Below, piece after piece: positions 8,616 to 20,566 of a stretch of DNA of 56,947 nt. The translations under genes and the position numbers were made by a program. Under the pieces are notes generated by a model, which worked only from the letters and a program-made list of their open reading frames with translations, was not told the DNA's origin and ran no database searches. Origin of the DNA: Bacillota bacterium (GTDB lineage Bacteria > Bacillota > Sulfobacillia > Symbiobacteriales > ZC4RG38); the NCBI GenBank assembly GCA_021890795.1, contig JAKKUO010000010.1, positions 1 to 56,947 of the forward strand, in the 5' to 3' direction. Numbering within the stretch: the first letter of the stretch is position 1; every line of letters starts with the position of its first letter.

Positions 8616-10073
8616 TCACGGGGCGCCATTGCCGTCAGTGGGAGCCAAAGGGTCGGCGGCGGAGCCATATTCCGTTGTCCTGCCGAAGAGCCCGGCCCGG
8701 GCCCGGTGCAGCGCCCGGGCCTTTTCCAGTTGCTGACGGACCGCCTCCGGCCCGGTGCCGCCGCGGCTGTTGCGACCGGCGACACAGGCCTCGGGCTCGA
8801 GCGCGGCGTAGACGTCCGCCTCGATCTTGTCGGAGAACCGCCGGTACTCCTCCAGGCTGAGGTCCAGGAGGTACTTCCCCGACTGGATCGCGTACAGGAC
8901 GATCCGGCCGGCAATCTCGTGGGCCTCCCGGAAAGGCACCCCCTTTTTCGCCAGGTAGTCCGCCAGGTCCGTGGCGTTGGAATAGTCCTGGCGGACCGCC
9001 CGGGCCATCCGGTCCCGGTTGAACCGGACCGTGGCCAGCATCCCCGCGGTCATCTCCAGGCAGGCCTTGAGGGTGTCCACCGCGTCGAAGAGCCGCTCCT
9101 TGTCCTCCTGCAGGTCGGTGTGGTAGGCCAGGGGCAGGGCCTTCACGACCGTCAGGAGGGCCATCAGGTCGCCGTAGATGCGGCCGGTCTTGCCCCGGAC
9201 CAGCTCCGCCACGTCGGGGTTCTTCTTCTGGGGCATGATCGAGGAGCCGGTGGCGAAGCTGTCGTCCATCTCCACAAAGCCGAACTCCGCGGTGGACCAG
9301 AGGATCAGCTCCTCCGCCAGCCGGGAGAGGTGGGCCTGGCAGATGGCCGCGGCCGCCACCACCTCCAGGACGAAGTCCCGGTCCGAGACCGCATCGAGGC
9401 TGTTCTCGTACACCCCGGCAAAGCCCAGCTCCTGCCGCACCTGTTCCCGGTCGATGGGGAAGGTGGTCCCCGCCAGGGCCCCGGCCCCCAGGGGCAGGAG
9501 GTCCGCCCGCTTGTAAGCATCGGCGAAGCGGCCGTCGTCCCGCTCCAGCATCCAGAAGTAGGCCAGGAGGTGGTGGGCCAGGAGGATGGGCTGGGCCCGC
9601 TGCAGGTGCGTGTACCCGGGCATGACCGTCTCAAGCTCTTCGGCAGCCCTATCCAGGATAATCCCCTGCAGGTCGAAGATCAAGGCGCGAATGGCGGTAA
9701 TTTCGTCCTTGACAAACAGATGCAGATCCGTGACCACCTGGTCGTTCCGGCTGCGGGCGGTGTGGAGCTTGCCCCCCACCGGGCCGATCTTCTCGATCAG
9801 CCGGCGCTCGATGTTCATGTGGATGTCCTCGTACTCCACCCGGAAAGGAAAGGTGCCCGCGGCCAGCTCCCGCCGGACCTCCTCCAGCCCGGCCAGGATC
9901 GCCTCGGTCTCCGCCGGGGCGAGGATGCCCTGCCGGCCCAGCATGCGGGCATGGGCCATCGACCCCCGGACGTCCTGGGGCCAGAGCCGGCGGTCAAAGC
10001 CGATGGAAGCGGTAAAGCGCTCCACCTTCCGGTCGACCGCTTTGGTGAACCGGCCCGCCCACGGTTTGCTCAC
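8616..10073 (-). CDS. argH: Argininosuccinate lyase
   Basis: Last step of arginine synthesis, splitting argininosuccinate to arginine and fumarate; 485 residues, about 20 more than usual because of a charged C-terminal tail. The superfamily signature GSSIMPQKKNPD is intact, as are the TARSRNDQV-type loop (HTARSRNDQVVTDLHLF) and the YTHLQRAQP segment. The GTG start has GGAGG 9 bases upstream. It heads the operon argH-carA-carB, away from its usual partner argG, which is in the argC operon 10 kb off. The promoter and ARG box before it match those of argC, so both operons should be repressed together by arginine. Confidence 0.95.
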   Translation of the reverse strand: MSKPWAGRFTKAVDRKVERFTASIGFDRRLWPQDVRGSMAHARMLGRQGILAPAETEAILAGLEEVRRELAAGTFPFRVEYEDIHMNIERRLIEKIGPVGGKLHTARSRNDQVVTDLHLFVKDEITAIRALIFDLQGIILDRAAEELETVMPGYTHLQRAQPILLAHHLLAYFWMLERDDGRFADAYKRADLLPLGAGALAGTTFPIDREQVRQELGFAGVYENSLDAVSDRDFVLEVVAAAAICQAHLSRLAEELILWSTAEFGFVEMDDSFATGSSIMPQKKNPDVAELVRGKTGRIYGDLMALLTVVKALPLAYHTDLQEDKERLFDAVDTLKACLEMTAGMLATVRFNRDRMARAVRQDYSNATDLADYLAKKGVPFREAHEIAGRIVLYAIQSGKYLLDLSLEEYRRFSDKIEADVYAALEPEACVAGRNSRGGTGPEAVRQQLEKARALHRARAGLFGRTTEYGSAADPLAPTDGNGAP

Positions 10074-10125
10074 CGGTCATCGCCTCCGTTCCCCGTTCCT
10101 CAGGCCCTGGGCAGGGCTCTGCATG

Positions 10126-10154
10126 ATTATACTATCCATTGCATATGTATGCAA
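10126..10154 (-). promoter_or_regulatory. argH-carAB promoter
   Basis: On the minus strand TTGCAT (10149-10154), a 17-base spacer and a perfect TATAAT (10126-10131). The same hexamers with the same spacing occur before argC. Confidence 0.85.
10139..10154. promoter_or_regulatory. ARG box (ArgR/AhrC operator) of argH
   Basis: TTGCATATGTATGCAA is an inverted repeat imperfect only at the centre, and covers the -35 and part of the spacer. The core TGCATATGTATGCA is identical at argC. Shape and location agree with known ArgR/AhrC operators; the regulator gene is not in the window. Confidence 0.75.
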
Positions 10155-10218
10155 GGGCGACCCCCTGGGAGGGGGTCGCCCTGAAGCCGAAGCCCGGTGT
10201 CCCCTCGGACACCGGGCT
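10155..10218 (-). terminator. Two back-to-back hairpins ending the PTS operon
   Basis: Just after the Enzyme I stop come a 12-bp perfect stem (10191-10202 with 10207-10218) and another 12-bp perfect stem (10155-10166 with 10170-10181, 3-base loop). Neither has a proper U run. The second abuts the argH ARG box, insulating argH from PTS read-through. Confidence 0.6.
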
Positions 10219-10222
10219 GTTC

Positions 10223-11977
10223 TCACTGCTCCGATTTCAGCTCTGCCAGAGCCTCTTCGAGGCAGGACCGGACCTCCCGGGCCGTGGCCAGCCCCCGGAC
10301 CCGCTCCCAGAGGGCGACAAAGGTCGCCCGATCCGCCCGGCGGATCAGGTCCTTGGCCCGGAGCACCGCCGGCGCCGGCATGCTCAGCTCGTCGATCCCC
10401 ATGCCCACCAGGAGGGGGATGGCCAGGGGCTGCCCGGCCATATCCCCGCACATGCCGACAGGGATGCCATGCCGGTGCCCTTCCTCGATGGTCCGGGCGA
10501 TGAGCCGCAGGACCGCGGGGTGGAAGGGGTCCGCCAGCTCCCCCAGGGCCGGGTTGCCCCGGTCCGCGGCCATGGTGTACTGGACCAGGTCGTTGGTGCC
10601 GATGCTGAAGAAGTCGCACTCCCGGGCGAGGAGGTCCGCGGCCATGGCCGCCGCCGGCGTCTCGATCATGATCCCCACCGGGATCCGGTCCGCCACCGCC
10701 ACCCCTGCGGCCACCAGCTCCTCCCGGACCGCGGCGAGTTCGGCCTTGGCCCGCCGCAGCTCCTCCAGGCAGCTGATCATGGGAAACATGATCCAAAGGT
10801 TCCCGTAGGGCGAGGCCCGCAGGAGCGCCCTGAGCTGCCGGCGGAAGAGCTCGGGCTCCCGGAAGCAGAGCCGGATGGCCCGGACCCCCAGGAAGGGGTT
10901 CTCCTCCTTGGGCAGGTCCAGGTACGGCAGGGGCTTGTCCCCGCCGATGTCCAGGGTGCGGATGATGACCGGCCGGGGCTTCACTGCCTCCAGGACGGTC
11001 CGGTAGGCCTCAAACTGCTCCTCTTCCGTGGGCATGGCCTCCCGGTGGAGGAAGAGGAACTCGGTGCGGAAGAGGCCAATCCCCTCCGCCCCCGCGGCCA
11101 GCACCCCGGCCACCTCCCCGGGCTCGCCGATGTTGGCCGCAACCTGGACCCGGTGGCCGTCCCGGGTCGCACCGGGGAGGTCCCGGAGGGCCAGGAGCCG
11201 CTCCCGTTCCCGCTCCGCTTCCGCCCGGGCCGCCTGGTAGGCCTGGACCCGCTCCGGCTCCGGCGCCACCACCACCGTCCCCTGGTCGCCGTCCACCAGC
11301 AGCAGCTCTCCGTCGGCGACGACGCCGGTGATCCCTGCCGCACCCACCACCACCGGAATCCCCAGGGCCCGGGCGATGAGGACCGTATGGGAGGTGCGGC
11401 CGCCCCGCTCCAGGACGATGGCCCCCACCTTCTGCACGTCGAGGGATGCGGTCTCCGACGGCAGGAGGTCTTCTGCCACCAGGACCGCCCCCGGGGGCAG
11501 GCCCTTGGGCAGGCCGGACTCCGCCGCGCCGGTGAGGCACCGGACCACCCGCCGGCCCACGTCCCGGACGTCTGCGGCCCGCTCCGCCAGGTACGGATCG
11601 TCCAGGGCCGCCAGCACCGCGGCCTGCTCCTCACAGGCCTTCAGGCACGCGGCTTCCGCCCCCAGATGCTCCTCGGTGATCCGGCGGACCATCGCCTCCA
11701 CCAGGGCCGGATCCTGGAGCATCATCCGCTGGGCGCCGAGAATCCCGGCCTTCTCCTCCCCCAGCCGCTGCCGGGTCTCAGCCTCCAGGGCTGCCAGCTC
11801 CTCCTCCGCCCGGGCCAGGGCCGCCCTGAGCCGCTCCACCTCCGCCGGCGCCTCCTCGGGCCGGATCCGGCGCCCGGTGCTGGCCAGGCCGGCCTTTTGC
11901 ACCAGGACCGCGGGGCCCAGGTGGGAGCCGGGGGCAGCCCCCAGACCCCGGAGTTCAACCGCACGCGGCTGCGTCAT
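10223..11977 (-). CDS. ptsI: PEP-protein phosphotransferase, PTS Enzyme I
   Basis: Cytosolic first enzyme of the PTS; it takes phosphate from phosphoenolpyruvate onto a histidine and passes it to HPr. Length 584, close to the family's ~575. The phosphorylated His197 lies in GGRTSHTVLIARALGIP. The PEP-binding TIM barrel has the radical-type motifs FFSIGTNDLVQYTMAADRGNP and the catalytic Cys in GMCGDMAGQP. The start overlaps the end of the HPr gene by 23 bases, implying translational coupling. It is the last gene of a sugar-specific PTS operon, so this copy may be dedicated to that substrate or may be the cell's only Enzyme I; the window cannot tell which. Confidence 0.95.
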   Translation of the reverse strand: MTQPRAVELRGLGAAPGSHLGPAVLVQKAGLASTGRRIRPEEAPAEVERLRAALARAEEELAALEAETRQRLGEEKAGILGAQRMMLQDPALVEAMVRRITEEHLGAEAACLKACEEQAAVLAALDDPYLAERAADVRDVGRRVVRCLTGAAESGLPKGLPPGAVLVAEDLLPSETASLDVQKVGAIVLERGGRTSHTVLIARALGIPVVVGAAGITGVVADGELLLVDGDQGTVVVAPEPERVQAYQAARAEAERERERLLALRDLPGATRDGHRVQVAANIGEPGEVAGVLAAGAEGIGLFRTEFLFLHREAMPTEEEQFEAYRTVLEAVKPRPVIIRTLDIGGDKPLPYLDLPKEENPFLGVRAIRLCFREPELFRRQLRALLRASPYGNLWIMFPMISCLEELRRAKAELAAVREELVAAGVAVADRIPVGIMIETPAAAMAADLLARECDFFSIGTNDLVQYTMAADRGNPALGELADPFHPAVLRLIARTIEEGHRHGIPVGMCGDMAGQPLAIPLLVGMGIDELSMPAPAVLRAKDLIRRADRATFVALWERVRGLATAREVRSCLEEALAELKSEQ

Positions 11978-12245
11978 GGCTGGGGCTCCCCCCTTCCCCG
12001 CCGAGGAGGGCCGACAGCCGTTCGATGGCCGCCTCCTCCCCGGGACCCTCGGCCACCAGGACCACCTCCTGGCCGCACCGGATCCCCAGGCTCAGCACCT
12101 GCAGGATGCTCTTGGCGTCGGCAGACCGGTCGCCGGCCATGAGGATCACCCGGCAGGGGTGCTTCTGGGCTTCCTGGACAAACTGGGCTGCAGGCCTGGC
12201 GTGCAAGCCTACGGGATCGGTGATGGTGATGCGTCGGGTTTGCAT
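11955..12245 (-). CDS. ptsH: Phosphocarrier protein HPr
   Basis: 96 residues, slightly longer than the usual ~88 because of a Gly/Ser/His tail. His15 in GLHARPAAQF accepts phosphate from Enzyme I, and Ser46 in AKSILQVLSLGI matches the HPr-kinase target of Firmicutes. The protein can therefore probably also act as a carbon-catabolite signal with CcpA, provided HprK exists elsewhere. The tail is encoded by DNA that overlaps the start of ptsI. The best ribosome-site match (GAAGG) is rather far upstream of the ATG, about 12 bases. Confidence 0.93.
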   Translation of the reverse strand: MQTRRITITDPVGLHARPAAQFVQEAQKHPCRVILMAGDRSADAKSILQVLSLGIRCGQEVVLVAEGPGEEAAIERLSALLGGEGGSPSHDAAACG

Positions 12246-12318
12246 GCGGCTTCGACACCTTCCCCTTTCTCAGGGTAATTGGCGGATGCCCGGATGGGGC
12301 CCGGCACCCCGCGGACCC

Positions 12319-12954
12319 TCAGCGGAGTGCGGCCTGCACCTTCTCCACCAGGGTCCGGGCCCGCTCGGCGATGGCGTCCCAATCGCCCCGGGCCACCAGG
12401 TCCTTGGCCACCAGCGCCCCGCCCAGGCCAACCGCGTAGGCACCGGCCCGGATGAACTCGTCGGCGTTCTCCACGGTAATGCCGCCGGTGCCCAGGAGCC
12501 GGATCTCGGGGAACGGCCCCCGCATCTCCCGGAAGAACGCCGGGGTCACGGCGCTGGCCGGGAAGATCTTCACCAGGTCCGCCCCGGCCCGGACCGCGGT
12601 GACCGCCTCGGTGGGGGTCATGGCCCCTGGGATGGCAAGGCGGCCCAGCTCCTTGGTCTTCCGGATTACGTCCGGGTCGGTGTGGGGGGAGACGATGAAC
12701 TCCGCCCCGGCGGCCACCGACCGCTCCACTTCCTCCGGGGTCAGGACCGTCCCCATCCCCGGCACCACATCGGGCAGTTCCCGGGCGATCGCGGCCACGG
12801 ACTCCAGCGCACCCGGGGAGGGGTAGGTCACCTCGATGCAGCGGATGCCGCCCTTGTAAAGAGCCCGGGCCACGGCGACCGCCTCATGAGGCCCCAGCCC
12901 CCGGAGGATGGCCACCACCCGGCTTGCGTGTAAGGCTTCGGCTGCACGGCTCAA
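12319..12954 (-). CDS. eda: KDPG/KHG-type aldolase
   Basis: Class I aldolase of 211 residues that splits 2-keto-3-deoxy-6-phosphogluconate-like compounds to pyruvate and a triose phosphate. The Schiff-base lysine is Lys129 in DLVKIFPAS, the general base Glu41 is in CIEVTYPSP, and Arg18 in AILRG binds the carboxylate. Typical family members read EVTLRTP or EITFTTP where this one has EVTYPSP, so the substrate could differ (KDPG, KDPGal or 4-hydroxy-2-oxoglutarate). The TTG start is supported by GAGGTG 7 bases upstream. Its place in the PTS operon suggests that the imported sugar ends in an Entner-Doudoroff-like cleavage. Confidence 0.88.
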   Translation of the reverse strand: MSRAAEALHASRVVAILRGLGPHEAVAVARALYKGGIRCIEVTYPSPGALESVAAIARELPDVVPGMGTVLTPEEVERSVAAGAEFIVSPHTDPDVIRKTKELGRLAIPGAMTPTEAVTAVRAGADLVKIFPASAVTPAFFREMRGPFPEIRLLGTGGITVENADEFIRAGAYAVGLGGALVAKDLVARGDWDAIAERARTLVEKVQAALR

Positions 12955-13009
12955 CGCCCATCACCTCAGTTCCGTCACAATCTCAGCGATTCGCCTCAGT
13001 TCTGTTCGC

Positions 13010-13306
13010 TTATCCGCCGGCCAGACGCTCGCCGACGCTCTCCGCCAGCCGGCGGAGGTTTTCCGCCGTGGGGAACATGTACGCCATGGGAGCCACCAGG
13101 ACCGGGGTGCGCAGGGGGAACCCCGGGTGGGCCGGGGCGACGAAGAGGGCCGCCTGCCCGTCCCAGTAGCCGCAGGCACCCACCTCCGCCTCCAGGGCCT
13201 CCACCCGGAGCCCCCGGGCCCGGAGGCCCGTCTGGATCGCCTCCGCCAGCATCCGGGCCCGGGTGGCGCAGTTGTACTGGAGGACCACCACCAGGTCAGG
13301 TCGCAA
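13010..13306 (-). CDS. Small IIB-like protein of unknown function
   Basis: About 98 residues, not recognised as a named family. It begins RPDLVVVLQYNCATRARMLAE: a beta strand, a cysteine (residue 13), then a helix, followed by alternating strands and helices (ALFVAP.., PVLVAPMAYM). This resembles the fold of lactose/cellobiose-type PTS IIB proteins, whose phosphorylated Cys sits in the same place, although the CGSG/CSAG loop is not conserved. The TTG at 13306 has a G6 run 7 bases upstream; an ATG five codons earlier (13321) is the alternative. Either start overlaps the SDR stop, implying coupling. A redox or regulatory role is equally possible. Confidence 0.6.
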   Translation of the reverse strand: MRPDLVVVLQYNCATRARMLAEAIQTGLRARGLRVEALEAEVGACGYWDGQAALFVAPAHPGFPLRTPVLVAPMAYMFPTAENLRRLAESVGERLAGG

Positions 13307-14036
13307 CGGTGTACCCCCCATCCACCGGCAGCAACGCCCCGGTGATGTACCGGGCCTCGTCGGAGAGGAGGAAGGCCACCGCGTCGGCCACCTCCGCCGG
13401 CTCGGCCATCCGCCCCATGGGGATCCGGGCGAGGCGCTGCTCCTCCAGCTTCCGCAGCTCCGGGTCCTCGAACCGGGCCCGGATCTCCTCGGTGAGGGTG
13501 GGCCCCGGGCAGACCGCGTTCACCCGGATCCGGGGGGCGAGTTCCAGGGCCAGGGACTGGGTGATGGCGCTGACCGCGGCCTTGGCCCCGGTGTACTGCA
13601 TCCGGCCGGTCTTGGGCCGGACCGCCGCGGAGGAGCTGAGGTTGACCACCGCCCCGGTCAGCTCCGTGGCCGCCAGCCGGCGGGCGAACTCCCGGGTCAT
13701 GACCACCATGGTGACCACGTTGGAAGCGTAGGCGGCGTGCAGGGCCTCCGGGGTGAGGTCCGCGAGGGTGCGCCGCTCCCGGCCGCCACCGACGTTGTTC
13801 ACCAGGAGCTGGGGCACCCCCACCTGCCCGGTGACGGCGTCAAACAGCCGGGCGACGGCCTCGGGGTCCGACACATCGCAGGTGAAGGCAAAAAGTCGCT
13901 CCCCGGAGACCGGATTCGGCTCCCGGTCCACCATGACCACGGTGGCGCCGTCGGCGTGCAGCCGCTCGGCGATGGCCCGGCCGATCCCCCGGCGGGCCCC
14001 GGTGACCACCGCAATCTTGCCTGCCAGCCCCCGCAT
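13296..14036 (-). CDS. Short-chain dehydrogenase/reductase (SDR)
   Basis: NAD(P)-dependent oxidoreductase of 246 residues, classical SDR. The dinucleotide-binding TGARRGIG is at about 12-19, the NNVGG stabilising motif near 80, the catalytic Ser-Tyr-Lys set as NLSSSAA..QYTGAKAA, and the CPGP segment after it. It resembles 3-oxoacyl reductase-like and sugar or polyol dehydrogenases; the acidic D (VMVDREPN) after the second strand suggests NAD rather than NADP. It follows the zinc dehydrogenase gene by 12 bases and overlaps the small IIB-like gene, firmly inside the PTS operon. The likely substrate is the imported polyol or sugar acid, or its phosphate. Confidence 0.88.
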   Translation of the reverse strand: MRGLAGKIAVVTGARRGIGRAIAERLHADGATVVMVDREPNPVSGERLFAFTCDVSDPEAVARLFDAVTGQVGVPQLLVNNVGGGRERRTLADLTPEALHAAYASNVVTMVVMTREFARRLAATELTGAVVNLSSSAAVRPKTGRMQYTGAKAAVSAITQSLALELAPRIRVNAVCPGPTLTEEIRARFEDPELRKLEEQRLARIPMGRMAEPAEVADAVAFLLSDEARYITGALLPVDGGYTVAT

Positions 14037-14048
14037 CCTACCACCCCC

Positions 14049-15095
14049 TCACGGACGGATGACCACCTTCAGCCCCTCGCCCCGGGCCACCCGGTCGAAG
14101 CCCGCATGGACCTCGGCCAGGGGCAGCTCGGTGGTGATGAGAGGCCGCAGGTCGATGGCACCGGAGGCGAGCCAGCGGAGGGTGGTGTCGTACTGGTTGG
14201 GGCCGGAGCCGTTGGCCCCGAAGACCGCCAGCTGCTTGTAGTGCAGAAGGTTGGTGTTCAGCACCGCCTCGGGCCGGTCGTGGGGCAGGCCGGCAAAGAA
14301 GCTGACCCGGCCGGCAGGGCGAGCGATCTCCAGCGCCAGGCGCTGGGCCTCCGCCGACCCGGCGGCGACGATCACCACGTCGAGCCCCAGGCCGGTGAGC
14401 TGCCGGACCCGCTCCACCGGGTCCTCCTGCCGGGAGTTGATGACAAAGTCCGGCCGGAACCGGCGGGCCTCCTGGATCCGGCCCTCGGAGATCTCGATGA
14501 AGCCCACCAGCGCTGCGCCCTGGGCCCGGGCCTGCAGCAGGTGCATCACCCCGATGGGCCCGGCGCCGATGATGCCCACGGTCTCCCCGGGGCGGATGTT
14601 CAGGAGCCGCTGGCCGTTGTAGACCGCGGTGAAGGGCTCGACCAGCGCCGCCGCGGTGAGGTCGAAAGGATCCGGAAGCTTGCGGACGTTCCCCAGGCGA
14701 ATCGCCGCCGCAGGGATCCGGACGTACTCGGCGAAGGCACCGTCGTAATCAAAGCCGATGATGGTCCGGTGCAGGCAGAGGTTCTCGAGCCCCTGCCGGC
14801 AGTAGGCGCACATGCCACAGGAGATTCCGGGGACCACCATCACCCGGTCCCCTTCGGCGAACCCTTCCACCGCCGCCCCCACCCGGGCCACCACGCCGGA
14901 GAACTCGTGGCCCAGGACCCGGCGGCCCTTGATCCGGGTGTGCCCCGCCTTGAAGGTCCGGAGATCGGTGCCGCAGATGGAGCAGGCGTGGACCCGGACC
15001 AGGATCTCGTCCGGGCCGATCTCCGGCACGGGCACCTCCTCCACCCGCATCTCGCCGGGCCGATAGAAGACAAGGGCCTGCATGGTCTTCGTCAC
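14049..15095 (-). CDS. Zinc-dependent polyol/alcohol dehydrogenase
   Basis: Medium-chain dehydrogenase of 348 residues like sorbitol, galactitol-phosphate and threonine dehydrogenases. Catalytic zinc ligands appear in SICGTDLRTF and GHEFSG; structural zinc ligands in CGMCAYCRQGLENLC; the Rossmann motif is GIIGAGPIGVMHLLQA. The GTG start overlaps the stop of the preceding gene as GTGA and has GGAGG 10 bases upstream. With a galactitol-type PTS in the same operon, oxidation of an imported polyol phosphate to a ketose phosphate (as GatD does) is the natural reading. No tagatose-phosphate kinase or tagatose bisphosphate aldolase is present, which argues against plain galactitol catabolism. Confidence 0.9.
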   Translation of the reverse strand: MTKTMQALVFYRPGEMRVEEVPVPEIGPDEILVRVHACSICGTDLRTFKAGHTRIKGRRVLGHEFSGVVARVGAAVEGFAEGDRVMVVPGISCGMCAYCRQGLENLCLHRTIIGFDYDGAFAEYVRIPAAAIRLGNVRKLPDPFDLTAAALVEPFTAVYNGQRLLNIRPGETVGIIGAGPIGVMHLLQARAQGAALVGFIEISEGRIQEARRFRPDFVINSRQEDPVERVRQLTGLGLDVVIVAAGSAEAQRLALEIARPAGRVSFFAGLPHDRPEAVLNTNLLHYKQLAVFGANGSGPNQYDTTLRWLASGAIDLRPLITTELPLAEVHAGFDRVARGEGLKVVIRP

Positions 15096-16156
15096 GTCCA
15101 GTCCACCTCCACCCCAATCGCCGCAGCCTCCTGTCGGATCTCCGCGGCCACCTTGGCCGGAATGGGAATCCCCCGCTCCAGCCGCTCCTGCCGGGTGCGG
15201 GCCTCCAGCTCGCCGGGGAGGAAGACCCCGGGGGAGTCGGCCGCCGGCGGGCAGCCGTGGACCTTGGCCACCACCTCCTCCACCTCGGCGAGGAACCGGT
15301 CGCGGCCAGCGAAGAGGTCTGGGTCGATTGCGGCGAGGAGGAAGCTGACGTTCTGCCCCCGGTCCAGGCCGTGGTGCAGGGAGGCAACCTTGTCCATGCA
15401 GCCGCCGCCGGAGAGGGCCCCGGTCAGGAGGTCGATGCAGAGAGAGAGGCCATACCCCTTGGGGCCGCCCAGGGGCATCAGAAGCCCCTTGAGGGCCTTC
15501 TCCGGGTCGGTGGTGGGCCGGCCCTCCGGGTCCAGGGCCCACCCCTCCGGAATCGGCATCCCCTTCTCCCGGGCCAAGTAGATCTTGGACTTGGCCGCCG
15601 CGCTGGTGGCCATGTCCAGGATGATCGGCTCCCCCTCCCGGCGGGGCACCGCGATGGAGAGGGGGTTGGTCCCCAGGAGGGGCCTCCGGCCGCCCCAGGG
15701 GGCCATGCTGGGCGGGGCGTTGGAGAGGGTGATGCCGATGAGTCCCTGGAGCGCCGCCATGCGGGCGTAGTAGAAGGCCGCCCCCAGGGTGGTGTTGTTC
15801 ATGCACAGCGCCAGGAAGATCCCGGTCTGGCGGCAGCCGGCGATGGCCTTATCCATGGCGAAGGTGCCGGCGATGGCCCCCAGGCCGTTGTCGCCGTCCA
15901 CCAGGATGTAGGCCGGACCACTCCGGACGATTCGGACCTGCGGGCGGGGGTTGGTTGCCCCCGCCCGCAGCCGCCGCAGGTAGGTGCCGAGAGCTGCCAC
16001 CCCGTGGGAGTCAACGCCCCGGAGGCTGGCTTCCACCATGCTCTCGGCCACGGTCCGGGCATCGGCCTCGGTGAGCCCGGCTGCCACCAGCAGCCGGACC
16101 ACCTCCGCTCGCAGCCGGTCCGCCGGGATCCATACCGTTGCGGCTGTCTCCGTCAC
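15092..16156 (-). CDS. Ldh2/Mdh2-family oxidoreductase
   Basis: 354 residues of the malate/L-lactate/ureidoglycolate dehydrogenase family (Ldh_2), which uses a fold unrelated to ordinary lactate dehydrogenases and reduces or oxidises 2-keto/2-hydroxy acids with NAD(P). Family landmarks: SLRGVDSHGVAAL with the catalytic His near residue 50, LGTNPLSIAVP, and DMATSAAAKSKI. The family includes 2,3-diketo-L-gulonate reductase and 3-dehydro sugar-acid enzymes, which fits a sugar-acid pathway ending in the KDPG-type aldolase. Its GTG start overlaps the PTS IIC stop (GTGA) and its stop overlaps the next start in the same way. Confidence 0.85.
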   Translation of the reverse strand: MTETAATVWIPADRLRAEVVRLLVAAGLTEADARTVAESMVEASLRGVDSHGVAALGTYLRRLRAGATNPRPQVRIVRSGPAYILVDGDNGLGAIAGTFAMDKAIAGCRQTGIFLALCMNNTTLGAAFYYARMAALQGLIGITLSNAPPSMAPWGGRRPLLGTNPLSIAVPRREGEPIILDMATSAAAKSKIYLAREKGMPIPEGWALDPEGRPTTDPEKALKGLLMPLGGPKGYGLSLCIDLLTGALSGGGCMDKVASLHHGLDRGQNVSFLLAAIDPDLFAGRDRFLAEVEEVVAKVHGCPPAADSPGVFLPGELEARTRQERLERGIPIPAKVAAEIRQEAAAIGVEVDWT

Positions 16157-17520
16157 GAGGCCTTCCCCCCAGCAGCCTCCGCCTCTTCGGCCTCAGGCAG
16201 GTCGGAGTACCGGGTCTTCAGGATCCAGAAGCCCGCGACCAGGAAGGCCACCGAGAGGATGATGCCGATCCAGTTCACCTCGGCGAACTCGAGGGTCCCC
16301 CAGATGACCGGGCTGGTCTTCAGCCAGGAGATCTGGGTAGCGCCCTCGGGGATCTGCTGGCCGACCTGGATGGCCAGCTCGGTGAAGGCCGGCGCCACCT
16401 TCGTGGCACCCCACAGGGAGACCGCCAGGACCACGACGCCGAGGATCAGGGACCGGACCAGGTCGCCGCCGACGATGGCCACCACCGGACCCATCAGGCA
16501 GCCGAAGTTCCCCAGGTCGCCGAAGGGCAGCACCTTATTGCCAGGCAGGGTGACCGACAGCAGGACCAGGACCGGGATCAGCAGCACCGCGGAGACGATG
16601 GTAGACGGGTGACCGGCAAGGATCGGCCAGTCGAGGCCGATGTAGAACTCCCGGCCGGAGAGGCGCTTCTTCATGAACTCCGAGGCCGCCTCGGAGATGG
16701 GCATCAGCGCCTCCATGAAGATGGACGCCATCCGCGGCAGGAGCACCATGGTCGCCGCAACGGTGACGCCGAGCTGGAGGATCTTGTCCACCTTGTAGCC
16801 CGCCAGGATGCCGATGAGCAGACCCATGATCAGGCCGATGATGATGTTCTCACCGAAGAAGCCGATCTTCCGCTGGATGTCCTCCGGATTGGCCCGCAGC
16901 TTCTTCATGCCCGGGATCGCATCCAGGAGCATGGCGAAGGGCGCCACGGGCAGCAGCCAGGTCGCGCAGGCATGGGGGATGGAGATGCCGGGCACGCCGG
17001 TGAGCTTCTGCACCCGCTTGGCGGTGATGTCACCGATCTTCAGCTCGATGACGATCATCGCAATGGCGACGATGAAGGCCCAGGTCAGGCTGCCGGTGAC
17101 CCCCATCACCACCGCGCCGGCGAAGACCTTCTGCCAGACGTTCCACAGGTCAACGTTCAGGGTCCTGGTCCAGCCGACCAGGAGCAGGAGCAGGTTGAGG
17201 ACAATCTGCACCGGGAACATGATGGCCGCATAGGGCCAGGCCCAGCTGATGGTGGACGCCGCGGGCCAGCCCACGTCCATGGCCGTCAGGTGCAGCCCCA
17301 GCCGGTTGATCATCGCCTGGGCGGCAGGGGCCACCTGACCGACCAGGAGCTGGCCCACCACCAGGTTGATACCGGTGAAGGCCACGCCCAGGGTCAGACC
17401 GGCCCGAATCGCCTTACCGGGCCTCAGGCCGAACAGCATGCCCATCAGCATCATGACGATGGGCAGGAAGACCGCTGCGCCGAGGCCGATGACCCACTTG
17501 ACGACGTCGAGTAGTGTCAT
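16153..17520 (-). CDS. gatC: PTS galactitol-family EIIC permease
   Basis: Integral membrane channel subunit of a galactitol-type (Gat) PTS, 455 residues with about ten hydrophobic segments. It starts LLDVVKWVIGLGAAVFLPIVM and contains the family's conserved GDITAKRVQK and GVPGISIPHACATW segments around the substrate site, and the FGDLGNFGC..GPVVAIVGGDLVRSL region. It imports a sugar alcohol or related sugar while phosphorylating it with IIA and IIB. The start overlaps the IIB stop by one base (TAATG). Gat-family IIC proteins also serve arabitol-like substrates, so galactitol itself is only a default label. Confidence 0.9.
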   Translation of the reverse strand: MTLLDVVKWVIGLGAAVFLPIVMMLMGMLFGLRPGKAIRAGLTLGVAFTGINLVVGQLLVGQVAPAAQAMINRLGLHLTAMDVGWPAASTISWAWPYAAIMFPVQIVLNLLLLLVGWTRTLNVDLWNVWQKVFAGAVVMGVTGSLTWAFIVAIAMIVIELKIGDITAKRVQKLTGVPGISIPHACATWLLPVAPFAMLLDAIPGMKKLRANPEDIQRKIGFFGENIIIGLIMGLLIGILAGYKVDKILQLGVTVAATMVLLPRMASIFMEALMPISEAASEFMKKRLSGREFYIGLDWPILAGHPSTIVSAVLLIPVLVLLSVTLPGNKVLPFGDLGNFGCLMGPVVAIVGGDLVRSLILGVVVLAVSLWGATKVAPAFTELAIQVGQQIPEGATQISWLKTSPVIWGTLEFAEVNWIGIILSVAFLVAGFWILKTRYSDLPEAEEAEAAGGKAS

Positions 17521-17816
17521 TACTGTTTCCCTCCCGTCAGTTTTTGGGCAATCTCATCGAGGACGGCCTGCTCGCCGATCCCCGTGAGCAGCGGCACACC
17601 GTTGACCACTGGGGCGTTGATGTCCACCTTCAGCCCCGGGGTGATGGAGACGACCAGGTCGATCTTCCCGATCTCCCCCTGAAGCTCCCGGAAGGCGATG
17701 GGCTTCACCTCCACGTCGATCCCGCGCTCCGCCATGCCCTTGCGGATCTTCTGGGCGCAGATGGTCGAGGATGCGATCCCCGAACCACAAAGGGTGATGA
17801 TGCGGTACTTGGCCAT
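17520..17816 (-). CDS. gatB: PTS galactitol-family EIIB
   Basis: 98-residue phosphotransfer protein. Cys10 in ITLCGSGIASSTICAQKI is the phosphorylated residue in the standard P-loop of this IIB class. Length and the GIDVEVKPIAF..DLVVSITP middle are typical of GatB. It sits between IIA and IIC with one-base overlap to IIC, in the order IIA-IIB-IIC. Confidence 0.92.
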   Translation of the reverse strand: MAKYRIITLCGSGIASSTICAQKIRKGMAERGIDVEVKPIAFRELQGEIGKIDLVVSITPGLKVDINAPVVNGVPLLTGIGEQAVLDEIAQKLTGGKQ

Positions 17817-17831
17817 GGGGTCTACCTCCCG

Positions 17832-18308
17832 TCAAGTAAGGGAAAGGTTGACTCGGCAGCGCACGAAATCGGCGACTGCCGCCGGATCCGACAGGCTGAT
17901 GAGTTGCGTCAGGGCGTCGGGCGACTGGAAGAGCTGAACCAGCTGGGAGAGGAAGTTCACGTGCTTCTGGGCAGGCAGGGCCAGGAGAAAGACCACCCGG
18001 ACATCGACCAGGTCCTGTTCGGTCCCCATCGCCCGCCAGGGGACCGGCTGGGGCAGAACCGCCACCGCCAGCCCGGGCCTGAGGCAGTACTCCGGGTCGG
18101 TGTGGGGGATGGCCACCCCTACCGGCTGGGTGGGTAGGCCGGTGGGAAACCGGGTCTCCCGGTCCTTGACCGCCTCCAGGAATCCCGGCCCGACGCACCC
18201 CCGGGCGGCCAGCCGGCCCGCCAGGTCCGCGATTACGGCCTCCGGGTCCGGAAAGGGTTGCCCAACCACCACCATGTCGCTGTCGAAAAGGATCGAGCCC
18301 AACGGCAT
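17832..18308 (-). CDS. gatA: PTS fructose/mannitol-family EIIA (GatA-like)
   Basis: 158-residue EIIA of the fructose/mannitol/galactitol class. His69 in PVGVAIPHTDPEY receives phosphate from HPr. It is the first gene of the catabolic operon, 15 bases before IIB. The ATG at 18308 is used here, but AAGAGG lies only 2-3 bases before it; the in-frame TTG at 18302 has better spacing (about 8 bases) and may be the true start, removing two residues. The promoter region with a GAATATTC palindrome is about 130 bases upstream. Confidence 0.9.
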   Translation of the reverse strand: MPLGSILFDSDMVVVGQPFPDPEAVIADLAGRLAARGCVGPGFLEAVKDRETRFPTGLPTQPVGVAIPHTDPEYCLRPGLAVAVLPQPVPWRAMGTEQDLVDVRVVFLLALPAQKHVNFLSQLVQLFQSPDALTQLISLSDPAAVADFVRCRVNLSLT

Positions 18309-18439
18309 CACCTCTTGTGCTGCGGACCTCCCGGCACCTGGGGGCCCCGTTGGCCACATCCCTGCCGTCCCCTTCCACCCCGCCCCGGCTGCCGCCTGAG
18401 GGCGGCACACCGCCGGCGGCAACAGCGGGGAGTTTGGAC

Positions 18440-18457
18440 TTTATAATCTGAATATTC
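18440..18457 (-). promoter_or_regulatory. PTS operon promoter with palindromic operator
   Basis: On the minus strand there is a -10-like TATAAA (18440-18445) with no matching -35. A perfect 8-bp palindrome, GAATATTC (18450-18457), lies in the spacer position. A weak -35 plus an AT-rich operator fits activation by the PRD regulator encoded just upstream. The rest of the 266-base gap is GC-rich with small hairpins and no gene. Confidence 0.45.
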
Positions 18458-18574
18458 TGTCTTCATTAGCAGCAGCCGTTCCCGGGACCGGGTACCTTTC
18501 TCCGGCGGACACCGGTGCCCGGCAGCCGGGACCGGTTCCCGGGCTCACCCCTCTTCGTTCCGCCGGAGGCGCCC

Positions 18575-20566
18575 TCATTTCTGGCTGCAGGGCGGTACCG
18601 GCGTCGCGGCGCTGCCGGTGACCCGGGCCGCCAACCGCTCCAGCAGGCTTCCCACGTCGGGGGCGCTGCGCAAGTCCGCCAGGGCCCGGGGGCTCTCGAG
18701 GATCTCCCAGAGCTGCATCAGGGCGGGAAGGTGGGATTCGGAGTCGACGGCCCCCAGGGCGATGACCAGGTCCACCGGGTCATGCTCCGGGTGACCGAAG
18801 TACACCGGCGTGCGGAGCCGCACCAGGGCCATCCCCAGTTCCCGCACCCCGTCTTCAGGCCGGGCGTGGGGCACCGCCACTCCGGGGACCACCACCACGT
18901 AGGGGCCCAGTTCCCGGACGGTGCGGAGCATCGCCTCGACGTACCGGCCTTCCGCCAACCCGGCCTTCACCAGAAGGGAACCGGCAGCGGCGACCGCCTC
19001 TTCCCAGGTCCGGGCCACAGCGTCCACAGCCACAGTGGCGGGAGTGAGGAGGTCCAGCAGGGCCGGCGCCTGCCCCCGGGACCGGGAGGCGGAGAGCTGG
19101 GCCAGGGTGCGGCGAATCCGGGCGATGTCGTCCTCGGTCAGGAAGGGGGAGACCTGGACCACCGGCAGGTCGCAGGGCAGCAGCCGGCAGGTGGTGATCA
19201 CCAGGTCGCAGGGCTCCTCCGCCAGCACCTGCCCAAGCTGCAGGGCCGAGACCACCCGGTTGACCATCAGCCCCGGAAAGGCCGCCCGCAGCCGGGCCAG
19301 GAGAAGCTGGGAGGTGCCCAGCCCGGCCCCGCAGACCACCACCGCCCTGGGCAGGGTCCGCTGCTGCAGCCGGGCCCGCTCGATGGCCGCCGCCACGTGA
19401 AGCGCCAGGAAGCCGACCTCCTCCACCGGGATGGGAAGCCCCCACTCGACCTCCAGGATCCGGGCCATCTCCTCCGCCACCCGGTAGGCCGGGGCGTAGC
19501 TCGACCGGATCTCATCCAGGAAGGGGTTCACCGGCCGCTGGGAGAGGCCGAGGAGCTGCCGGATAGGCCGCAGGTGGAGGGCCAGGTTCAGGAGGAAGTC
19601 CGGGTCCTGGGTGACGGGCACGCCGGTGCGGGTCTGGACCAGGCTGGCCAGGCGCCGGACCAGGCGTCGCTCGCTGTCCGACAGGTCGGCCTCCGTGGCA
19701 GGTACCGGCGCCCGGTGGGTGGCCTGGACCATCACCGCCACCTGGGCCCGCTCCGTTGCGGAGAGAGGCAAGCCGAAGCGCTTCTCCAGCTCGCTGCAGA
19801 CCAGGTGGGCCCGCTGCCAGCTCCAGGTGCCCCGGACCCGCTCCACCAGCTGAGGGTCGGGGGGCAGGGTGTGGCCCGCCGCCACCCGGCTGAGCATCAC
19901 CGTCAGGTAGACCACCAGTTCCGGCGGACCCGCATCCCGGAGGACCGCGCCCAGGGCGGGCCAGTCCACCTGGGGCAGCAAGGGCCGCAGGAGCGACTGC
20001 AGGGCAGCCGCCTCCGGCCGGCCCTCGAGGAGCATGGCCAGTTGCCCCTCGTCCAGCTCCTCCATCACCAGGTCGGTCATGGCCCGGCGCCAGGCGGTCT
20101 CGGAGCCCTCGACCCGGATCCCCGGGGCCCGGACCAACTCGAGCCCTCGTTTCCGGAGCCAGGCCTCCACCCCGGCCAGGTCGGTGTAGACGGTGCTCCG
20201 GCCGACCCCCAGCCGGGCCGCCAGGTCCCGGAGCCGGTGGGGCCCGCCGGGGCCCAGGAGCAGCAGCAGGATGCGCCGCACCCGCTCCCTGGGGGTGAGG
20301 ACGTACTCGTAGGGTGGGGTGTCCGCCAGGGGCAGGCGGCTGAGGGCTTCCCGCACCTTCTGGAGGTCGCCTTCCAGGTAGTACCCCACCCCGGCCCTGG
20401 CGACCAGCCGGGCATCGTATCCCTTCACCCAGTCCGCGATGGCCTCCAGGTCATACCGGACGCTCCGGGCCGGATACCCCAGAAGGCGTCCCAGCTCCGC
20501 GGCGGACAGGGGCCCGCTGGCCATCAGGAGCAAGTGCAGGAGCCGTTGCCTGCGGTCGTTCAGCAC
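18575..20566 (-). CDS. PRD-domain PTS transcriptional activator (MtlR/LicR type)
   Basis: 663-residue multidomain regulator. In order: two helix-turn-helix domains (about 1-60 and 80-140), PRD1 (about 165-270), PRD2 (about 280-385), a galactitol-type IIB domain with VVVCGAGLGTSQ (about 392-480) and a C-terminal IIA domain with VAVPHARPED (about 515-650). PTS phosphorylation of the PRDs and the IIB/IIA domains sets its activity. PRD2 keeps its conserved histidines (LNLALHLRP and FLALHVAAA). PRD1 has VVYLTV and AVMVQA where these are expected, so it looks insensitive to phosphorylation. The GTG at 20566 has GGGAGG 7 bases upstream; in-frame GTGs at 20572 and 20605 are less likely. It lies directly upstream of, and parallel to, the PTS operon. 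Confidence 0.9.
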   Translation of the reverse strand: MLNDRRQRLLHLLLMASGPLSAAELGRLLGYPARSVRYDLEAIADWVKGYDARLVARAGVGYYLEGDLQKVREALSRLPLADTPPYEYVLTPRERVRRILLLLLGPGGPHRLRDLAARLGVGRSTVYTDLAGVEAWLRKRGLELVRAPGIRVEGSETAWRRAMTDLVMEELDEGQLAMLLEGRPEAAALQSLLRPLLPQVDWPALGAVLRDAGPPELVVYLTVMLSRVAAGHTLPPDPQLVERVRGTWSWQRAHLVCSELEKRFGLPLSATERAQVAVMVQATHRAPVPATEADLSDSERRLVRRLASLVQTRTGVPVTQDPDFLLNLALHLRPIRQLLGLSQRPVNPFLDEIRSSYAPAYRVAEEMARILEVEWGLPIPVEEVGFLALHVAAAIERARLQQRTLPRAVVVCGAGLGTSQLLLARLRAAFPGLMVNRVVSALQLGQVLAEEPCDLVITTCRLLPCDLPVVQVSPFLTEDDIARIRRTLAQLSASRSRGQAPALLDLLTPATVAVDAVARTWEEAVAAAGSLLVKAGLAEGRYVEAMLRTVRELGPYVVVVPGVAVPHARPEDGVRELGMALVRLRTPVYFGHPEHDPVDLVIALGAVDSESHLPALMQLWEILESPRALADLRSAPDVGSLLERLAARVTGSAATPVPPCSQK

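Follow-up and report, generated by a model that had tools for sequence, protein, structure and literature searches.

What might a bacterium consume with a PTS operon that combines a galactitol-type transporter, three dehydrogenases, a pyruvate aldolase and genes for HPr and Enzyme I (EI)? This question is raised by an eleven-gene minus-strand unit at positions 10223-20566 of a 56,947-nt contig from a Bacillota bacterium of the order Symbiobacteriales (the whole contig is referred to here as the window). The unit sits between argG and argH, both named from ORF reading. Coordinates together with domain and profile matches confirmed the eleven genes and the families assigned to them in an initial annotation, which had also considered that no described pathway uses this set; likewise, we found none in the literature searched. 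Our slightly favored answer is a dedicated PTS catabolic operon, in which redox steps by MDR, SDR and Ldh2 enzymes would be followed by Eda-type pyruvate release, the route probably ending at a deoxy-acid phosphate.

A PTS relay encoded in one unit

The unit begins with an MtlR/LicR-type PTS-regulated transcription regulator (18575..20566, GTG start; all features of the unit are on the minus strand) composed of HTH, PRD, IIB-like and IIA domains (Pfam HTH_11, PRD and PTS_EIIA_2). In the orthologous operons described below, a sigma-54 regulator of the LevR/DagR type takes the place of this MtlR/LicR type. Downstream, EIIA (PTS_EIIA_2, 17832..18308) keeps the IPHTD phosphorylation motif and the galactitol-type EIIB (17520..17816) keeps the cysteine of its CGSG motif, followed by an EIIC of the EIIC-GAT family (16153..17520; PF03611, 266 bits) that forms its own clade. 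The last two genes encode HPr (11955..12245), with phospho-His and Ser46-like motifs, and EI (10223..11977), with the active-site sequence GGRTSHT. Judged by these intact motifs, EI, HPr, IIA, IIB and the galactitol-family IIC make up a complete relay, whose expected role is the uptake of a polyol- or sugar-acid-like compound with concomitant phosphorylation.

The transporter resembles that of the galactitol (gat) PTS operon, with which the unit shares IIA, IIB, an EIIC-GAT family transporter and a zinc MDR. A conventional galactitol pathway encoded by an atypical set of genes would account for the family membership of IIC, IIA and IIB, but every score against the curated galactitol profiles falls below its cut-off (IIC, TIGR00827, 424 versus 542 bits; IIA, 47 versus 139; IIB, 38 versus 95; MDR as galactitol-1-phosphate 5-dehydrogenase, 146 versus 550). 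Furthermore, the operon differs from gat by the addition of Ldh2, SDR, a small protein X, Eda, HPr and EI, and its gene content includes no sugar kinase, tagatose-phosphate kinase or tagatose-bisphosphate aldolase, as had been noted initially. The earlier view that this is not a galactitol pathway is borne out by these scores and absences, and we regard a galactitol route as highly improbable. The IIC is 67-76% identical to those of the orthologous operons and at most 48% identical to those of a sample of other genomes across the phylum, where none of the 20 GAT-transporter neighbourhoods examined has an Ldh2 or Eda gene.

The spacing of the genes fits a single operon, consistent with the leftward unit that had been proposed. 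IIB-IIC, IIC-LDH2, SDR-X and HPr-EI overlap, and intergenic distances are 15 bp for IIA-IIB, 55 bp for X-EDA and 73 bp for EDA-HPr. The exception among these short or negative gaps is the widest, 266 bp between the regulator and IIA (18309..18574), whose AT-rich patch makes it a candidate control region. A scan of the unit for internal terminators and sigma-70 sites found none above shuffled sequences. Two perfect GC-rich hairpins lie directly 3′ of the EI stop codon (10154..10222) and likely mark the operon end. The stretch from EI to argH (10050-10222) holds this hairpin pair together with a TATAAT-like site from which argH might be transcribed; compared with plasmids, the argH-EI stretch shows similarity to argH and ptsP only.

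A conserved block and its candidate routes

An Ldh2 search of the class recovered the block IIA-IIB-IIC-Ldh2-MDR-SDR-X-aldolase, in identical order, in two other families, represented by Ca. Fermentithermobacillus carboniphilus (G317) and a second genome, G324; the initial annotation had suggested searching related genomes for the same gene order. In both, the genes ahead of the block encode a class II aldolase and a DagR-like sigma-54 regulator, and the one behind it a TIM-barrel epimerase-like protein. All core genes are also present, rearranged, in Thermoanaerobacter wiegelii and another genome of the Thermoanaerobacter class (G479), and in a genome of the same genus as ours (G427) one short contig spans IIC to EDA and another EDA-HPr-EI. 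Eight genes kept in order in two families and rearranged in two Thermoanaerobacter-class genomes are more than chance would give; the operon is real and conserved. It points to a carbon source and route without assignment that are common to thermophilic Firmicutes and, since T. wiegelii Rt8.B1 is available as an isolate, the substrate question is within reach of growth and enzyme assays.

The enzymes of the block allow an outline of the favored route. Following uptake and phosphorylation of a polyol- or sugar-acid-like compound by the PTS, the zinc MDR (14049..15083), whose nearest solved relatives are L-threonine 3-dehydrogenase and sorbitol dehydrogenase, would act on the phosphorylated product by oxidizing a secondary alcohol group in it. 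The SDR (13296..14036; TGxxxGIG and YxxxK motifs by sequence reading) and the divergent Ldh2-clade enzyme might then carry out further redox or rearrangement. Finally, the KDPG/KHG-type class I pyruvate aldolase (Eda, 12319..12954) would release pyruvate and a phosphorylated aldehyde, e.g. glyceraldehyde 3-phosphate. This aldolase scores above the TIGR01182 cut-off (192.7 versus 156 bits) and keeps the Schiff-base Lys129, which is invariant across all operons compared. No kinase would be needed in such a route because the PTS itself phosphorylates.

Relatives that place galactonate dehydratase and Eda behind the same transporter clade suggest, by analogy, a 2-keto-3-deoxy sugar acid phosphate as the probable end point of the route. 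In a Megasphaera genome, the cluster around a related IIC (51% identity) encodes HPr, an MDR and an aldolase as well as a galactonate dehydratase and a protein resembling galactarate dehydratase; EI lies nearby, and Ldh2, SDR and X are missing. T. wiegelii holds both gene sets, and its galactonate dehydratase scores 644 bits against a cut-off of 311. The second block behind its PTS (L087, 13708-20141) comprises a 2-hydroxyacid dehydrogenase, a split UxaA-like dehydratase and the galactonate dehydratase, along with a further dehydrogenase, an MFS transporter and a second Eda. In the De Ley-Doudoroff pathway, galactonate is processed by DgoD, DgoK and DgoA. Of these, DgoD recurs in Megasphaera and T. 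wiegelii, where it accompanies an Eda-type aldolase behind a PTS of the same clade; the window operon differs in having no DgoD, and PTS phosphorylation would stand in for DgoK.

The initial annotation had proposed import, redox chemistry to a 2-keto-3-deoxy acid phosphate and aldolase cleavage. As the scheme of a conserved PTS-catabolic unit this is plausible and partly supported but incomplete, since the operon is without a dehydratase: none of its genes encodes a known one able to make the 2-keto-3-deoxy acid. A search of our genome that covered galactonate dehydratase and the ILVD/EDD family gave no match to the former and one protein of the latter, presumably IlvD.

These dehydratase results also bear on a second route, modeled on L-idonate catabolism. 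The L-idonate pathway comprises IdnD (an MDR), IdnO (an SDR) and then Edd/Eda, with a permease and a kinase and neither a PTS nor an Ldh2 enzyme. Applied to a 6-phosphate, its epimerizing logic would have the MDR oxidize and the SDR re-reduce with inversion, after which a dehydratase encoded elsewhere would yield a KDPG-type acid for Eda to cleave. The window operon shares the combination of MDR, SDR and Eda-type superfamilies in one unit, and its PTS could stand in for gluconate kinase. However, the MDR matches the L-idonate 5-dehydrogenase profile weakly (110.6 bits, below the cut-off of 469) and scores higher as a threonine dehydrogenase, the genome offers no galactonate dehydratase match and a single ILVD/EDD protein, and no role is left for Ldh2 and X. 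We consider such a route unlikely.

A third route is raised by the FucA/AraD-like class II aldolase that lies next to operon genes in three of the orthologous operons and is closely related to fuculose-phosphate aldolases of known structure. Here the MDR would oxidize a polyol phosphate to a ketose phosphate, from which the class II aldolase would release DHAP and an aldehyde, with the aldehyde branch left to Ldh2, SDR and Eda. The window operon, however, is without this aldolase, and the homolog in the same genome is found at another locus and is only 44-46% identical to the operon-clade aldolases, which are 63-65% identical among themselves. A ketose-phosphate route is accordingly quite unlikely in our estimation. 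That homolog (contig C40, L121, 7140-7796; 46% to the Fermentithermobacillus-operon aldolase) lies about 3 kb from a 2-hydroxyacid dehydrogenase (10234-11280; 57% to one beside the Fermentithermobacillus operon), by an aldehyde-ferredoxin-oxidoreductase-like ORF; any link of this pair to the operon is speculative. The TIM-barrel epimerase of the relatives had no homolog in our genome, in a search run without a positive control.

PTS uptake also occurs together with an SDR and an Eda-type aldolase in a streptococcal hyaluronan operon, which encodes an SDR reductase, an Eda-type aldolase, a KDG kinase, an isomerase and a glycosidase behind a PTS of another family. The window operon shares PTS uptake, the SDR and the Eda-type aldolase and differs in its PTS family and in adding Ldh2, MDR and its own HPr-EI. 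The streptococcal operon is described as a PTS operon for the hyaluronan disaccharide (PMC6837340).

The Ldh2 clade and protein X

The Ldh2/L-sulfolactate-dehydrogenase-like oxidoreductase (15092..16156; Ldh_2 domain PF02615, 394 bits) departs from its family at the active site. We aligned it with solved relatives and 31 homologs, using AllD numbering. The window protein carries Ala55 at the position of AllD Arg48 and Thr123 at that of His116, and in all six operon Ldh2 proteins His44 is kept while His116 is replaced by Thr and Arg48 by Ala, Val or Ile. By contrast, 26 of the 31 other homologs retain H-R-H; of the remaining five, four have Asn at position 48 and one has Tyr/Gln. The six operon proteins form one clade (support 100/99), and a search of a 398-genome sample of the phylum showed no further members, the score falling from 649 to 375 bits.

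The two active-site histidines of the family have been described as invariant, and the R48A and H116A mutants of AllD are inactive (PMC3527362). A clade without these AllD-essential residues makes ordinary 2-hydroxyacid chemistry doubtful. The operon proteins thus share the fold family and His44 with the L-sulfolactate dehydrogenase-like family (AllD, YiaK, DpkA, ComC) and differ by the loss of substrate-binding Arg48 and catalytic His116. These substitutions suggest that the operon Ldh2 likely has a changed reaction or substrate; it may also be inactive. A simple reading of the three dehydrogenases as two oxidations and one reduction, in line with the initial scheme, is weakened by this enzyme. 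The altered active site is directly testable; the predicted model has a mean pLDDT of 70, and we base no structural claims on it.

X (13010..13321) is a small protein outside any Pfam or NCBIfam family. It is present in all operons at low identity, with one invariant cysteine (Cys18) that lies about 3 residues after the usual IIB phospho-Cys in a hand alignment. An IIB-like fold is predicted: the model (pLDDT 88) gave a Foldseek list headed by IIB domains from PTSs for lactose, galactitol and cellobiose with probabilities of 0.97-0.99, but with E-values of only ~0.01-0.02 and TM-scores of 0.46-0.59, and with LMW phosphatases and flavodoxins closely behind. X may be an IIB-derived accessory or regulatory protein. 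Searches of plasmids and 299 genomes of the phylum gave no match to X beyond its own genome.

The Ldh2 clade without Arg48 and His116, X, the separate HPr-EI lineage described below and the added aldolase and dehydratases of the relatives are new here. It is possible, though we hold this tentatively, that the operon encodes a PTS-initiated pathway not yet described, whose key new reaction would fall to an enzyme of the Ldh2 fold that has lost the canonical Arg and the catalytic His, with X acting as accessory or sensor.

Two HPr-EI pairs in one genome

The operon had been called self-contained for carrying HPr and EI. It does carry both, but the genome has another HPr-EI pair, so the operon pair may not be its exclusive phosphate source. 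This second ptsHI, whose existence the initial annotation had asked about, lies in a fructose operon (L003, 7697-12769) in the cluster fruK, IIA, FruBC, HPr, EI, an assignment based on the names fruK and FruBC from ORF reading. Each of the two PTS operons in the genome therefore has its own HPr-EI, a clear case for asking whether duplicated phosphorelays are insulated.

Sequence comparison places the operon HPr-EI in a lineage distinct from the other pair. The operon EI shares 51% identity with the fructose-operon EI and 58% with a Fermentithermobacillus EI; in the EI tree it groups with Fermentithermobacillaceae and a further family, f134 (98/97), while the fructose-operon EI falls among those of its own order (100/100). 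The simplest reading would be horizontal gain of HPr-EI together with the operon, with a Fermentithermobacillus-related lineage as the probable source. Alternatively, the two pairs may reflect an ancient duplication followed by losses. A compositional signal of transfer was sought by comparing the operon with the window and was not found; the two have equal GC content, so composition gives no sign of transfer. In Fermentithermobacillus itself, the best-matching EI lies away from the operon and an HPr adjoins it; in Megasphaera, HPr and EI both lie beside the related PTS cluster.
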